A DNA stretch of 64,000 bases from Nesterenkonia sp. Act20 (lineage in GTDB: Bacteria > Actinomycetota > Actinomycetes > Actinomycetales > Micrococcaceae). The notes below the pieces were generated by a model. It saw only the letters and a list, made by a program, of their open reading frames with translations, had not been told where the DNA came from and did no database searches. Location: contig NZ_JADPQH010000001.1 of the NCBI RefSeq assembly GCF_019173455.1, forward strand, positions 1,116,001-1,180,000, read 5' to 3'. Position 1 is the first letter of the stretch; the number at the start of each line of letters is the position of its first letter. Positions 21,514-27,093 of this stretch are shown in pieces. The translations under genes and the position numbers were made by a program.

Positions 21514-21519
21514 TAGGAT
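21514..21519 (+). promoter_or_regulatory. -10 element of a leaderless promoter (trmL)
   Basis: TAGGAT ends 7 nt before the GTG at 21527. It overlaps an in-frame ATG at 21518, which argues against that ATG as the start. Confidence 0.55.
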
Positions 21520-21526
21520 GACCGGC

Positions 21527-22000
21527 GTGAAGACTCCGATTCGTGTGCTGGTGGACCAGCCTGAAATCCCCGGCAATACCGGTAACCTGATCCGACTGGC
21601 GGCGGTCACCGGGGTTGAGCTGCACCTCGCGGAACCGTTGGGCTTCGACTTCGCCGACGCGAAGCTGCGCCGGGCTGGCCTGGATTATCACGACCTCGCG
21701 GTGATGACGGTGCACCCAAGCCTGGAGGCCGCCTACGCCGCTCTCTCACCGGAGCGGATCTTCGCCTTCACCGGGGACGGCTCGGTCTCGCACACCTCCA
21801 TCAGCTACCGGGCCGGCGATGTGCTGCTCTTCGGACGGGAGTCGACCGGGCTGGACGACACGGTGAAGGCTGATCCGCGCATCACGGAACGCGTGCGGAT
21901 TCCCATGCTGGCGTCCCGACGATCGCTGAATCTGGCGAATTCGGTCTCCATCGCCGTCTACGAGGCCTGGCGTCAGGACGGTTTCACCGGCTCCGTCTGA
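21527..22000 (+). CDS. trmL: tRNA (cytidine(34)-2'-O)-methyltransferase TrmL
   Basis: SPOUT-family methyltransferase that 2'-O-methylates the wobble nucleotide of certain tRNA-Leu. The 157-residue protein has the family N-terminus VDQPEIPGNTGNLIRLA, the AGLDYHD segment, and the trefoil-knot SAM site LLFGRESTGLDD with RIPMLASRRSLNLANSVSIAVYEAW. Length equals E. coli TrmL. The GTG start at 21527 was chosen because it is 7 nt after a -10 element. An in-frame ATG at 21518 would lie inside that promoter element. Confidence 0.88.
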   Translation: MKTPIRVLVDQPEIPGNTGNLIRLAAVTGVELHLAEPLGFDFADAKLRRAGLDYHDLAVMTVHPSLEAAYAALSPERIFAFTGDGSVSHTSISYRAGDVLLFGRESTGLDDTVKADPRITERVRIPMLASRRSLNLANSVSIAVYEAWRQDGFTGSV

Positions 22001-22044: not shown

Positions 22045-22050
22045 TAAACT
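22045..22050 (+). promoter_or_regulatory. candidate -10 element for the sigma/anti-sigma gene
   Basis: TAAACT ends 8 nt before ATG 22059, consistent with a leaderless or nearly leaderless transcript. Confidence 0.45.
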
Positions 22051-22058
22051 CAGCAATC

Positions 22059-23723
22059 ATGGACACCGCCTCTGACCGCCCCGCATCGGACCGCCCCGAG
22101 GACCGTCCTGACGGTGCCGCGACACCCTCGGATCACACCGAAGATGAGCACGTCGAATACGTCGATTCCGAGGATGAGACGTTCCCGGAGGACATGCCGG
22201 ACCAGGATGCCCCGGAGCAGCTCAGCGATCCCACGCTCAGTGAGCTGCTCGCCGGTTCGGCGCGCGGAGACCAGCCCTCCTTCGCCACGTTCTATGAGGC
22301 GACCTCCGACGTCGTCTATGGTCTTGCGCTGCTCATGCACGCCGACGCCGAAGGCGCCCAGGACTCGACCCTCGCCGTCTACCACCAGCTGTGGGACCAG
22401 GCGGAGGAGCGCGCCCAGGATCTGCGTCTGCAGTCGCAGGCCTCGGAGCTGCTCACCGATGAGCACGCCGCCGACGAGGTGGATCCCGAGAACGCCTACC
22501 GGCCCACGGAGTACGAGCTCGTGCTGGAATGGCTCATTCCCCTGGCGCACCAGATCATGGTGGAGCGCTTTCGCGAGGGTATGGCCACCCCGATCACGCT
22601 TTCAGCAGTGCCCCCCGAACAAGGTGGAGGGGTGGCGGGTCTGCCCGAGGAGATCATCGAGGACATCGACTCACTCTCGGACTCGCAGACCCAGGCCCTC
22701 GCGCTGAGCTACCTGGCCGGCGGCACCCACCAGCAGGTCGCCGAGGCTGTCGGTGCGGCCGTCCCCGCCGTGAAGTCCCGGCTGCGCGACGGCATGACCC
22801 GTATGCACGCCCAACGCACGACGCGGGAATCGGAGCTTGATCCGATCCTGCGCGCTGCGGTGACCAAGCGAGACGTCGAACGCTCCGGAGGGGTGAACCG
22901 CAACTTCACCGAGGACATCAGCTCCGACGTGGAGCACGGACTGCTCGTGGAGCTCGCCGAGATCCACGCGCTGGACGCGATCGACACCCGCGAACGTGCG
23001 CTGCTCGATGAGGCGGCGCTCACCGCCGACGAGGCGACCTCACGCGCCTGGGACACCCGGGTGCTGGCCGCTCGACGCACGCTTGCCGAGATCTTCACCG
23101 CCCATCCGGTGGTCCCGCCCAGCCACCTGCTCGATGAGGTCCTGCACAACCTCTCCGACCAGGAGGTCGGGATGGGAATGGTGGAATCGATCTCCAGCCA
23201 TACCGAAGAGGCGCCGAAGCGCGAGCCGCTCATGAAGCGGTGGATGATCCTGACGGGCCTCGCCGTCGTCGTGCTGGCCGCGGTGCTCCTGATCTGGGGG
23301 TTCACCGCAGGTCAGGACATCGAGGCCACCGCTGATGGGGACCCCGAGGCTCGCGTCACCGAGGACATCGAACTCTCCCAGGGCGGCACCGCCCGAGCAG
23401 TGATGTCCTCCGCCGAGGACGTCGGCTACGTGGACTTCTCCGACGTCGGCGAACTCGAGGGTGAGGACACCTACCAGCTGTGGCTGATGCCGCATGAGAC
23501 GGGTCAGCCCAGCTCGCTGGGCAACTTCACCGCGGAGGAGTTGGAAGAGGAGGTCGTCACCGTGGACGGCATCTCCTCGCACCGCGCCCTGCAGATCACG
23601 GTGGAGGACATCCGCGGGGTCGAAAGGCCCATGGGCGAGACCGTGGCCGAGGTCCAGCTGCGCGAGAGGATCACCGACGGCCCCCAGTACGGCGGATCAC
23701 CGGAGGACGAGGAGCAGAACTGA
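22059..23723 (+). CDS. fused ECF sigma factor / RskA-like anti-sigma membrane protein
   Basis: A single 554-residue chain holding both halves of an ECF switch. After an acidic disordered N-terminus, residues 59-118 resemble sigma region 2 (LSELLAGSARGDQPSFATFY). Residues 205-250 resemble region 4, with a helix-turn-helix in LALSYLAGGTHQQVAEAVG and AVKSRLRDGM. Residues 285-350 resemble the cytosolic domain of RskA-type anti-sigma factors (ELAEIHALDAIDTRERALLDE). One membrane segment lies at about 394-416. Residues 430-545 match the extracytoplasmic RskA domain (TYQLWLMPHETGQPSSLGNF, then ITVEDIRGVERPMGETVAEV). It is normal in families such as SigK/RskA for the two parts to be separate genes. 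Here no stop or frameshift separates them. The region-2 part is degenerate, so promoter recognition is unproven. Confidence 0.75.
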   Translation: MDTASDRPASDRPEDRPDGAATPSDHTEDEHVEYVDSEDETFPEDMPDQDAPEQLSDPTLSELLAGSARGDQPSFATFYEATSDVVYGLALLMHADAEGAQDSTLAVYHQLWDQAEERAQDLRLQSQASELLTDEHAADEVDPENAYRPTEYELVLEWLIPLAHQIMVERFREGMATPITLSAVPPEQGGGVAGLPEEIIEDIDSLSDSQTQALALSYLAGGTHQQVAEAVGAAVPAVKSRLRDGMTRMHAQRTTRESELDPILRAAVTKRDVERSGGVNRNFTEDISSDVEHGLLVELAEIHALDAIDTRERALLDEAALTADEATSRAWDTRVLAARRTLAEIFTAHPVVPPSHLLDEVLHNLSDQEVGMGMVESISSHTEEAPKREPLMKRWMILTGLAVVVLAAVLLIWGFTAGQDIEATADGDPEARVTEDIELSQGGTARAVMSSAEDVGYVDFSDVGELEGEDTYQLWLMPHETGQPSSLGNFTAEELEEEVVTVDGISSHRALQITVEDIRGVERPMGETVAEVQLRERITDGPQYGGSPEDEEQN

Positions 23724-24303: not shown

Positions 24304-25074
24304 TCAGAATCCGCTGATCGTGTCCGCAGCGTTGACGGTGACCCAGTGGAACTCCTCGGCGAATCCGTCCCCGGCATGGATCTGGCGCATCTGATCCAGC
24401 ACGAATCCCTCCATGCGTGCGGCGTCCGGGTGCTGGCTGAAATGCTGGCGCAGGGCAGCCATCTTCACGGCTTCTTGCCCGGTCACGTCCAGGCGCAGGT
24501 TCACCTGGTGCTGCGGCGCTGTGGTCAGCAGCAGATGCCGGATCTTGAACGCCTCCAGACCCGCGGCCTGCAGCTCCGGGTAGGCGAAGGGATTCTCCAC
24601 GAACGGGTACGCCGCCCGGACCACGGCCTCCCCGCAGGCCATATGGTCCGGGTGGGACTTCTGCAGCCGGTCCCAGGCCCGCTCGGGATGCGGTGCAATG
24701 ACCACTTCGGGCCGGACCTGACGCATCACCCGCACGATCTTGCCGACGAGCTCGTCGGTGGGTGCCACGAACCCGTCGCGCTCGTCGAGCATGATCACGT
24801 CGTGCACTCCGAGCAGGGCCGAGGCTTCGCGCTGCTCGATCTCTCGCAGCCGGGCCATCTCGGCGGAGTCGCGTCCCAGCTCGAAGCCGCCGGCATCCCC
24901 GGAGGTCAGCAGACACACCGTGACCTGGACGCCGGAGGCGGTGAGACCGGCGATCGTGCCTGCCGCCCCGAAATCAATGTCATCGGGGTGTGCGCCGAAG
25001 GCCAGGACCCGGGTGATCCCATGCTGCTGGACGAGCTGATCGGGGGTCTTCAGCGCCGACTCAGATGGTGCCAA
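24304..25074 (-). CDS. PIG-L family deacetylase
   Basis: Zinc-dependent deacetylase of the LmbE/MshB/Mca family, 256 residues. The metal site is formed by AFGAHPDDIDFGAAG near the start and KSHPDHMACGEAV later. Relatives include enzymes of mycothiol synthesis and detoxification, so a thiol-conjugate or N-acetylglucosaminyl substrate is possible but not shown. The start is TTG at 25074, preceded by GAGGTGA, and overlaps the upstream HtrA-like gene by 14 bp, suggesting translational coupling. The C-terminal LDQMRQIHAGDGFAEEFHWV is typical of the family. Confidence 0.88.
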   Translation of the reverse strand: MAPSESALKTPDQLVQQHGITRVLAFGAHPDDIDFGAAGTIAGLTASGVQVTVCLLTSGDAGGFELGRDSAEMARLREIEQREASALLGVHDVIMLDERDGFVAPTDELVGKIVRVMRQVRPEVVIAPHPERAWDRLQKSHPDHMACGEAVVRAAYPFVENPFAYPELQAAGLEAFKIRHLLLTTAPQHQVNLRLDVTGQEAVKMAALRQHFSQHPDAARMEGFVLDQMRQIHAGDGFAEEFHWVTVNAADTISGF

Positions 25075-26851
25075 GGGTCACCTCGACCTCGTCCTGCTGG
25101 CCGTCGCGCTGGTAGGTCACGGTGACGGACTCATCGGCGGCATATTCGCGGATGGTGGCCGTCAGCGCGATGGAGTCCTCGATCCGGCGATCGTTGACCG
25201 CGGTGATGATGTCTCCCGCCTGGAGGCCGGCCTCCTGCGCCGGTGACCCGTCCGGCACATCATCGATCAGCGCGCCCACTGTGAAGCCAGACATCGTGGG
25301 CGCACCGGACTCGTTCTGCTCGGCACCGGACTGGGACCCGGCGGCCGCGACGGTCACGCCGAGGAGCCCATGGGAGACCTCGCCGTTGGCGATGATCTCC
25401 TCGGCGACCCGCTGCGCATAGTCGATGGGTACCGCGAAACCGACACCGATCGATCCCGCGTCGGTCTCGGCCGAACCGCCGGAGGAGGCGATGGCCACGT
25501 TGACGCCGATCACGCGACCCTGATCATCGACCAGGGCGCCACCGGAGTTTCCGCGGTTGATCGCGGCGTCGGTCTGGATGACGTTCAGGTGGATGGAGCC
25601 CTGAGTGGGTGAGCCCTCCATGTCGGGGAAGTAGAACTCGAAGCCCTCGCTGTCCGGGGCCTCCTCCGGCGCGTCGGGGGCGTCGGCTGCCTCATCCTCC
25701 ACCGCGGAGGATGCCACGGAGATCGTGCGGTTCAGCGTCGAGACGATGCCGTCGGTGACGGTGCCGGTGAGGCCCAGTGGGGAGCCGATGGCGATGGTCT
25801 GGTTGCCCACATTGAGGTCTGCGGAGGAGCCGAGCTCGGCGGGCTGGATGCCCTCGATGTCTTCGAGCTGGACCACTGCCAGGTCGCTGAGCGGATCAGT
25901 GCCCACGACCTCCGCACTGGTGACCGAGCCATCATCCATCCGCACCTGGATCTCTGGGTCGGCCGCCGCGCCGCCGAGGGTCACCACGTGGGTGTTCGTC
26001 AGGACATGGCCCTGGTCATCGAGGATGATTCCGGAGCCGGAGCCGCCCTGACCGCCCTCGCTGACCGCCAGAGTCACCACCGAGGGCGATGCCTTGGCCG
26101 CAGCCGCTGTCACGACGGTGGCACTCTCAGGATTGTTGATCTCCACTCCCCCCGCCGAGGAGGTGGTCACCCCATCGTCATCGAGCAGGGCCGCGGTGCC
26201 GGCTCCGACTCCCCCGCCCAACAGACCCGCGAGGACGACGGCGAGCGCCAGTCCGCCAACGCCTACGGTGCGCTTGGCGCGTGGCGGCCGCTGTCCGGGA
26301 GGCGTCTGCGCGCCCCCCGGAGCCTGGCCATAGGCGTAGGGGCTGAACCCTGCCTGCTGACCGTGTGCGTTCTGCCCATAGGTTGGCTGGCCATACTGGT
26401 CGTTGCCATGCGGCTCATGACCATAGGACTGCTGGCCATACGGCTGCTGCCCGTACTGATTCTGGCCGTAGGGCTGCTGGCCATACTGTTCCTGCCCATA
26501 GGTCTGCTGACCGTAGAAGGGCTGAGCCTGCTCATATGCCGGGGGCGGCGTCGGCTCACCCTGCGGCGAGGTCGGGTCATAGGCCGGGGGCTGAGCACGC
26601 TCAGCGTCTGCCTGGTGCTGCGGCGTGGACGCGGCGGCGGGCCACCCTGCGGAGTAGGTCTCCTGCGCGGCTTCCGGAGCAGGGACCTGCGGGACGCTGT
26701 GCTCACCGCCGGCAGCGGGGTCCTGCGCGGGGCCCTGCGCAGCGTGCTGCGGGGAGTCCTGCGCGGAGGAGACCGGGTCAATCCGCTGCGTGGCATCCTC
26801 AGCGGGATGGATCGGATCGCGATCTCCGGTGTGATTCGGATCTGAGCTCAT
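25061..26851 (-). CDS. HtrA/DegP-like trypsin-type serine protease with PDZ domain
   Basis: A 596-residue S1C protease. The first 195 residues are cytoplasmic, disordered and Tyr/Gly/Gln-rich with repeated YGQ units. One membrane segment follows (VGVGGLALAVVLAGLLGGGV), placing the protease domain outside. The catalytic triad is visible: His in HVLTNTHVVTLGG, Asp in DPLSDLAVVQL and Ser in NRGNSGGALVDDQG. An acidic insertion (about 35 residues, EDEAADAPDAPEEAPDSEG) lies within the protease domain. A PDZ domain closes the protein (GSPAQEAGLQAGDIITAV). It probably handles misfolded envelope proteins. ATG at 26851 was chosen over one 33 nt upstream because AAAGGTAGG precedes it. Confidence 0.92.
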   Translation of the reverse strand: MSSDPNHTGDRDPIHPAEDATQRIDPVSSAQDSPQHAAQGPAQDPAAGGEHSVPQVPAPEAAQETYSAGWPAAASTPQHQADAERAQPPAYDPTSPQGEPTPPPAYEQAQPFYGQQTYGQEQYGQQPYGQNQYGQQPYGQQSYGHEPHGNDQYGQPTYGQNAHGQQAGFSPYAYGQAPGGAQTPPGQRPPRAKRTVGVGGLALAVVLAGLLGGGVGAGTAALLDDDGVTTSSAGGVEINNPESATVVTAAAAKASPSVVTLAVSEGGQGGSGSGIILDDQGHVLTNTHVVTLGGAAADPEIQVRMDDGSVTSAEVVGTDPLSDLAVVQLEDIEGIQPAELGSSADLNVGNQTIAIGSPLGLTGTVTDGIVSTLNRTISVASSAVEDEAADAPDAPEEAPDSEGFEFYFPDMEGSPTQGSIHLNVIQTDAAINRGNSGGALVDDQGRVIGVNVAIASSGGSAETDAGSIGVGFAVPIDYAQRVAEEIIANGEVSHGLLGVTVAAAGSQSGAEQNESGAPTMSGFTVGALIDDVPDGSPAQEAGLQAGDIITAVNDRRIEDSIALTATIREYAADESVTVTYQRDGQQDEVEVTLGTI

Positions 26852-27093
26852 GATGAAACCTACCTTTGCGGTCTTGCGAAGCAATAGAGCGGGAGTGTGA
26901 TGCGAGCACTCAATGATTGGTCTGCCTGCTATTGTCTGCGCTCACCCTGTACCGATGACGATAGCCTCCTGGACGCCTGCTGGACGATTCCAGTGGACGC
27001 ATAATTCATCACCGCCGCCGGCGTCAGTCAGCCTCACGGGGCCTCGTTCGAGGGTGTCACAGCTTCTCAATGGACGGTGTCAGGGGGCACTTA

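Follow-up and report, generated by a model that had tools for sequence, protein, structure and literature searches.

A conserved SigK/RskA-type fusion protein with a degenerate sigma part beside trmL in Nesterenkonia and other Micrococcaceae

SigK and RskA of M. tuberculosis (structure 4NQW), a sigma factor of extracytoplasmic function (ECF) group ECF19 and its membrane-bound anti-sigma factor, are two proteins. Single-chain sigma/anti-sigma proteins are also already known. According to PMC5411451, IutY from Pseudomonas putida (ECF243) is cut by Prc and RseP and its sigma domain is released. PMC8999054 describes ECF48, ECF52 and ECF53 as expected to act as single-chain sigma factors that are released by proteolysis. 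Here we describe an open reading frame (ORF) of Nesterenkonia sp. Act20 that encodes a SigK-like sigma part and an RskA-type anti-sigma part as one protein. It lies at positions 22059-23723 on the + strand of a 64,000-nucleotide stretch of contig NZ_JADPQH010000001.1 (positions 1,116,001 to 1,180,000), referred to below as the window. The fusion is old and shared rather than a fluke, and its sigma part has lost residues that separate sigma factors keep although it is under purifying selection in three of the four genera tested. On balance, the protein is probably a conserved membrane-tethered pseudo-sigma and not a working sigma factor awaiting release by cutting.

Domain architecture and predicted fold

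The ORF encodes a stop-free chain of 554 amino acids (aa) in which sigma2 and sigma4 are followed by an anti-sigma domain (ASD) of the RskA type, a single membrane helix and RskA_C. In profile searches Sigma70_r4_2 (residues 203-249, E 2.9e-6), RskA_N (296-343, E 3.2e-7) and RskA_C (402-524, E 2.7e-13) exceed the curated Pfam cut-offs. No match to Pfam Sigma70_r2 was reported for the window protein at E<=10, a search in which filters discard most weak matches. Among 15 fused members, matches at E<=0.01 were found to Sigma70_r2 in only two, to RskA_N in 10 and to RskA_C in all 15. Region 2 was recovered through other models. NCBIfam SigK matches the protein with E 3.7e-24 and 85.4 bits, under the model's cut-off of 226, and several ECF models cover parts of residues 48-149. 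PDB SigK (4nqw_A) aligns over two segments, 51-142 and 156-248 (E 1.2e-11). From these matches, the region 2 that the initial annotation had placed at residues 59-118 is present, but it carries an insert behind region 2.2 and reaches about residue 175. PDB RskA (4nqw_B) matches residues 296-362 (E 1.8e-4), and the full SigK-then-RskA order is therefore present in one chain. The proposal that a normally two-protein system had come to lie in one frame is thus borne out, both by the sequence matches and by the predicted fold. The parts of the protein are listed below.

22059..23723 (+): single-chain sigma/anti-sigma protein, 554 aa (ORF, Pfam and PDB matches, orthologs)
22059..22223 (+): acidic N-terminal tail, aa 1-55, probably disordered (predicted local distance difference test score <50; length varies among orthologs)
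22230..22598 (+): degenerate sigma2, aa 58-180, interrupted by an insert that follows region 2.2 (4nqw_A match; model helices 60-172; residue losses)
22347..22397 (+): region 2.2 helix, aa 97-113, with Leu105-Ala106 where split sigma factors have Gln-Glu (alignment)
22647..22829 (+): sigma4, aa 197-257, with most of the helix-turn-helix retained, K239, R241, R243, D244 (Pfam; residue counts; model)
22830..22922 (+): linker between sigma4 and the ASD, aa 258-288, DPILRAAVT...RNF (alignment; profile matches)
22923..23174 (+): RskA-type anti-sigma domain, aa 289-372 (RskA_N; 4nqw_B by sequence and fold)
23160..23189 (+): juxtamembrane motif QEVGMGMVES, aa 368-377 (alignment)
23232..23306 (+): membrane helix, aa 392-416 (sequence; model)
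23319..23663 (+): extracytoplasmic RskA_C domain, aa 421-535 (Pfam 402-524), a beta sandwich in the model (Pfam E 2.7e-13; model)

The insert in sigma2 (about 20-26 residues, window 22410-22499) belongs to Nesterenkonia, and the other fused genera are without it. In the alignment the sigma4-ASD linker can be made out in all fused genera except Micrococcus (five of six); in the site survey described below, its profile matches genera g2, g4, g16 and g21 and finds nothing in g14 or in split genes. The motif QEVGMGMVES resembles that of sigma-less proteins in most other genera and is not seen in split RskA in the alignment.

The cytosolic half is predicted to fold as a closed sigma2-ASD-sigma4 unit. 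The model has a predicted template modelling score (pTM) of 0.86, and its core is closed on itself in the arrangement of 4NQW (2.7 A over 144 residues, a comparison that covers the overall domain arrangement only). The predicted ASD has the fold of 4nqw_B, with a root-mean-square deviation of 1.6-1.7 A over 69-70 columns; in Foldseek this match has E 0.41 and 1.2 at a probability of 0.98-0.99.

Residue losses and selection in the sigma part

The sigma parts of 30 fused proteins, 15 of them from Nesterenkonia, were compared with 56 unfused sigma factors (54 loci, 4NQW and L001). The 30 are L034-L058 and five from g2 and g21, with L110 left out. The window sequence is not among them and was read in a separate alignment; L034 is 97% identical to it. 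The region 2.2 Gln and the Glu that follows it presumably correspond to Q406 and E407 of sigma70. All 56 split sigma factors have this Gln and none of the fused ones does, and the residue after it is acidic in 56/56 versus 5/30. The region 2.1 Arg is likewise lost (0/30 versus 55/56), as is a basic residue of region 2.4 at column 119 (0/30 versus 54/56). The Asp at column 122 is found in all 56 split and in one of the 30 fused sequences, 16 of which have Glu. A stretch of ten columns in the sigma2-sigma4 linker is filled in every split sigma factor and empty in every fused one. The tryptophan core, columns W61 and W111, is preserved in 30/30. Six split sigma factors that lie at the same genomic site are canonical in the alignment, and the losses therefore do not come with the locus as such.

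Region 2.2 is described in PMC4598750 as a main contact with the beta' coiled-coil. The initial annotation had called region 2 degenerate, and the missing Pfam match and the loss of Gln and Arg from all 30 fused sequences agree with this. It had also weighed a sigma factor that is freed by a cut against a tethered sigma factor that does not work. The second fits better and the first less well, because the 30 fused sequences lack several residues that a sigma factor is expected to need for binding polymerase and opening promoters, and the six split ones of the same site keep them. From this we infer that sigma activity has been lost.

The losses do not follow one simple pattern. Among columns that are at least 85% conserved in split sigma factors, mean retention in sigma2 is 0.34 for polar (15 columns) and 0.61 for non-polar positions (16 columns). 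In sigma4 the values are 0.63 (10 columns) and 0.49 (13 columns), so that a pattern of a kept core and lost polar residues fails for this domain. Redox cysteines were considered as a marker of the fused sigma parts and rejected, as 30 of the 56 split sigma factors also have none.

Is the sigma part nevertheless maintained? Simple Nei-Gojobori estimates of omega were made for pairs of Nesterenkonia, g4, g21 and Micrococcus; in the g21 pairs the synonymous divergence dS is either large or undefined. For Nesterenkonia, g4 and g21 omega is 0.03-0.28 in sigma2 (13 pairs) and 0.00-0.18 in sigma4 (12 defined values), and that of RskA_C is 0.03-0.29 (12 defined values). Two Micrococcus pairs gave 0.27-0.47 for sigma2, 0.51-0.62 for sigma4 and 0.58-1.09 for the linker, with 0.18-0.30 for the ASD and 0.15-0.28 for RskA_C. 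The sigma part is therefore a selected domain in three of the four genera tested, where sigma2 and sigma4 are both under purifying selection, and relaxed in Micrococcus.

Distribution of the fusion and states of the trmL site

Among 197 genomes of the family, one-frame matches through both halves were found in 40 genomes of six genera. They include all 11 genomes of the same genus, that of the window among them, and five other genera. Sequences were read for 32 of the 40 (L004-L033, L140 and L141); 31 are whole and one is without RskA_C. The other eight genomes are known as survey matches only, and for one of these, G189, the frame lengths differ between two surveys. In agreement with the initial annotation, which had described one uninterrupted frame, all 30 homologous loci that were read have the frame open throughout. 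A second, named collection overlaps the first in genomes; 25 of its 80 loci are fused, and these are from Nesterenkonia, Citricoccus, Micrococcus or Auritidibacter. Here the frame is uninterrupted in 25 of 26 loci at the trmL site. A separate RskA-like frame accompanies 52 of the 54 unfused sigma loci of this collection, and none was found at E<0.01 for L109 and L112. The trmL gene adjoins all 55 fused loci and L110, and it is absent from the examined stretch at 54 of 54 unfused loci.

The trmL site was surveyed in 32 other genomes of 31 genera, one per genus except for two of Micrococcus, with profiles built from the fused proteins. Four states were found. Separate sigK and rskA genes, adjacent or overlapping, occupy the site in six genera. 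The fused gene is present in six genomes of five genera, G139 counted. In nine genera the site holds nothing more than a short frame for a membrane helix plus RskA_C, and in 11 genera nothing recognisable was found in the examined stretch. Judged from the 197-genome survey, the state appears to vary within at least one genus (g32).

The short proteins (L117, L118, L121, L123, L125, L126, L130, L136, L139 and L176-L211) mostly show a D-L-G-[LM]-D-L-V-D-like juxtamembrane motif. In 36 further genomes chosen from eight of the nine short-frame genera, the short frame lies beside trmL in every case, and there was no match to the sigma part or the ASD in the examined stretch at any of these 36 loci. 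The strict pattern G-[LMIV]-[DEGSA]-[LMF]-[VIL]-[DEGN] is matched by 20 of the 36; six short frames of g23 are near variants of it, such as GLDLVS, and ten of g8 and g12 diverge further. The opposite loss was seen in the Micrococcus genome G139, where L140 is a frame of 418 residues with a sigma-like part, the ASD and the membrane helix and without RskA_C; no RskA_C match was found in this genome at E<=0.001. In contig JAUNTT010000032.1, from a metagenome-assembled genome (MAG) of Micrococcus, the fused gene (L110:3932-5464) is broken by one in-frame stop in the sigma part.

In a midpoint-rooted tree of RskA_C the fused domains group together (0.98), and with a support of 0.90 this group joins the short forms from eight genera, which by themselves are supported at 0.60. 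The short form of g8 sides with the split type and with pairs from elsewhere (0.90). Because of this grouping, the tree suggests that the sigma part was lost at least twice at the trmL site. The short protein of G007, a g8 genome, begins MDTP behind a TAGACT box, as split sigK genes do. The species tree loosely agrees with that of RskA_C, and its deep nodes are weak (0.56 for Nesterenkonia plus the other fused genera).

The immediate surroundings of the gene in the window are as follows.

22045..22050 (+): TAAACT, a -10-like box (TANNCT) that stands 8 nt upstream of the start codon (conservation of the box)
21518..22000 (+): tRNA methyltransferase, presumably trmL-like, the upstream neighbour at every fused locus read (locus reading)
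24304..25074 (-): deacetylase of what is presumably the PIG-L type, the usual downstream neighbour (locus reading)

Every one of the 27 fused loci examined, like each of the six split sigK genes of the same site, carries a TANNCT box 7-9 nt before the ATG, against a background of 2.6% in shuffled 75-mers. The 27 are taken from the 30 fused loci, with L005, L012 and L016 left out (two near-copies and one with an unfixed ATG). The start codon of the fused ORF is supported by this conserved box, and the position of the box suggests a leaderless or near-leaderless mRNA. In actinobacteria a housekeeping -10 box can stand directly before a leaderless start. The conserved box looks like such a housekeeping element, which argues against strict dependence of the gene on its own ECF promoter. 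The autoregulated ECF promoter that the initial annotation had suggested looking for is therefore not supported, the same box standing before fused and split genes in a comparison of the -10 region only.

Further downstream, a membrane protease that is trypsin-like by eye (HtrA/DegP type) with a long Pro/Gln-rich N-terminal part lies at window 25061-26884 (-). An HtrA-like protease is found near the fused gene at most fused loci and is a possible site-1 protease. However, it is also found near trmL in genomes without any such gene, and for this reason it was not used as a clue.

Possible functions and comparison with known systems

A SigK-RskA operon beside trmL was probably the origin of the protein, its two genes having become fused. 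In the fused lineage, the sigma part would then have lost the features needed for joining RNA polymerase and opening promoters, while its fold and most of sigma4 have stayed under selection. What remains most likely works as a pseudo-sigma, a cytosolic module that is permanently closed and is carried by an envelope protein built around RskA_C, the membrane helix and the juxtamembrane segment. Signals received at RskA_C would make the module hold or release a partner, either a protein or DNA bound through sigma4, without any release of a sigma factor. Sigma4 would be the likeliest surface for this partner.

The main rival is a working one-protein sigma factor that is released as in IutY: a site-1 cut would be followed by one from a Rip1-like site-2 protease, and the ASD would be trimmed away to free the sigma domain. 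We regard it as rather unlikely, though it deserves to be taken seriously. It has the single-chain precedents named above, and the conserved linker between sigma4 and the ASD could be the cutting site. It has to account for the residues of regions 2.1, 2.2 and 2.4 and the part of the linker that are lost in all 30 fused sequences, for the absence of the sigma part from the same site in nine genera and for the relaxed constraint in the two Micrococcus pairs. Several observations weigh on its side and against a pseudo-sigma. Region 2.4 is partly kept in the fused proteins (His117 in 25/30, Arg118 in 19/30, Arg123 in 21/30 and Arg125 in 24/30). Sigma4 is well kept, its recognition residues included, with Arg at column 216 in 30/30 and Lys at column 212 in 27/30 (Arg in the other three), and this conservation fits a DNA-binding output; purifying selection on the sigma part would be expected of a working factor as well. 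M50 site-2-protease homologs are present in seven of seven fused-clade genomes tested, although they are not specific, being found in 14 of 14 control genomes too. The closed fold is equally expected of an inhibited sigma factor that can be switched on. Some of the changes in region 2.2 could be an adaptation to inhibitory binding in cis, and a fused sigma part might bind polymerase through other residues. Finally, the loss counts are not independent events, because the fused sequences are related and half of them are from one genus.

A second alternative is that the tethered sigma part is a decoy that titrates another RskA, the beta-flap of polymerase or -35 DNA. The kept surfaces of sigma4 would suit this role, and the genome of the window has two further pairs of an ECF sigma factor and an RskA_C protein in separate frames (L001 and L003; the sigma factors were recognised by eye). 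The fused protein is, however, the only RskA_C protein at E<=0.001 in 20 of the 40 fused genomes: eight of eight in g21, nine of 11 in Micrococcus, one of one in Auritidibacter and two of 11 in Nesterenkonia. Of the remaining two Micrococcus genomes, one has a second RskA_C protein and the other is G139. In g21, where no second RskA_C protein was found, the sigma part is strongly selected (three pairs). In addition, its own ASD is predicted to sit in the position that an outside RskA would occupy. Because of the 20 genomes, a decoy for another RskA, which the initial annotation had raised, was rejected as a general explanation, with the proviso that partners other than RskA_C proteins would be missed by this count. 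The rejection does not extend to titration of polymerase or DNA; taken with these targets, a decoy is improbable.

It is also quite improbable that the sigma part is a decaying remnant and that only the membrane helix and RskA_C matter. Sigma part and ASD are indeed missing from the same site in nine genera, and the omega values of sigma4 and the linker in Micrococcus, together with the in-frame stop in the MAG, would fit decay. A remnant free of selection would have undone the initial annotation; the Micrococcus pairs go part of the way towards this. In the other three genera tested, however, omega in sigma2 and sigma4 stays within the range of RskA_C, the fold is predicted with high confidence, and G139 lost RskA_C and kept the rest. 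An artefact of assembly or annotation that joined two neighbouring genes, such as the adjacent or overlapping pairs of the same site in six genera, was rejected and is for practical purposes refuted by the uninterrupted frames across both collections and by a conserved linker that gives no profile match in split genes.

If the protein is a pseudo-sigma, a longer history may be proposed. The pair would have been fused in one branch of the Micrococcaceae, the sigma part would have become a closed module that does not transcribe, and sister genera would have discarded it, leaving an RskA_C membrane protein with a job of its own. We put this forward tentatively; it could well be right, though we lean slightly away from it. 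RskA_C together with the juxtamembrane segment would then be a membrane system independent of sigma factors, of which the fused proteins are the half-way stage. Because of the name of the domain, RskA_C proteins are readily taken for anti-sigma factors. At this one locus, related bacteria display the pair, the fusion with a disabled-looking sigma part, and the membrane protein by itself. This makes it possible to test whether selection can maintain a sigma factor for something besides transcription, and what RskA_C does when no sigma factor is present.

Of the described systems, SigK-RskA of M. tuberculosis is one of the closest. The window protein has SigK-like sigma2 and sigma4 in sequence and fold, the same order of sigma2, sigma4, ASD, membrane helix and RskA_C and the same predicted closed arrangement. 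The first helix of its ASD, ELAEIHALDAI, resembles the consensus of type AS19-1, the ASD type of RskA, given in PMC7406223. It differs from the ECF19 kind in the canonical residues of regions 2.1, 2.2 and 2.4 and in part of the sigma2-sigma4 linker, and the Nesterenkonia protein also in its long acidic tail and the insert in sigma2. Like class I anti-sigma factors of the RskA type it has RskA_N, a single membrane helix and RskA_C; unlike them it is not separate from its cognate sigma factor. IutY, as described in PMC5411451, is likewise a single polypeptide made up of a cytosolic sigma part, one membrane helix and an anti-sigma part on the outside, a likeness drawn from descriptions and not from sequences. 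However, the sigma factor of IutY is active, and the protein is part of an iron cell-surface-signalling system. ECF52 (SCO4117), ECF48, ECF53 and some ECF36 proteins also combine a sigma factor with an anti-sigma-like part and membrane helices. Their extensions are a C-terminal zinc-finger in ECF48, ECF52 and ECF53 and an N-terminal DUF2275 in ECF36, where the fused protein has RskA_N and RskA_C (PMC8999054). The sigma-less trmL-site proteins of other Micrococcaceae share the site, the helix, the outer domain and mostly a related juxtamembrane motif with the fused protein, and differ in having neither sigma part nor ASD. Among the literature matches listed, no title points to a SigK/RskA fusion or to this gene; the ECF reclassification (10.1093/nar/gkaa1229) may include such proteins. 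Within those matches, what sets this locus apart from the known single-chain systems appears to be an RskA-type fusion with a conserved, disabled-looking sigma part, together with relatives at the same site that keep the membrane part only.
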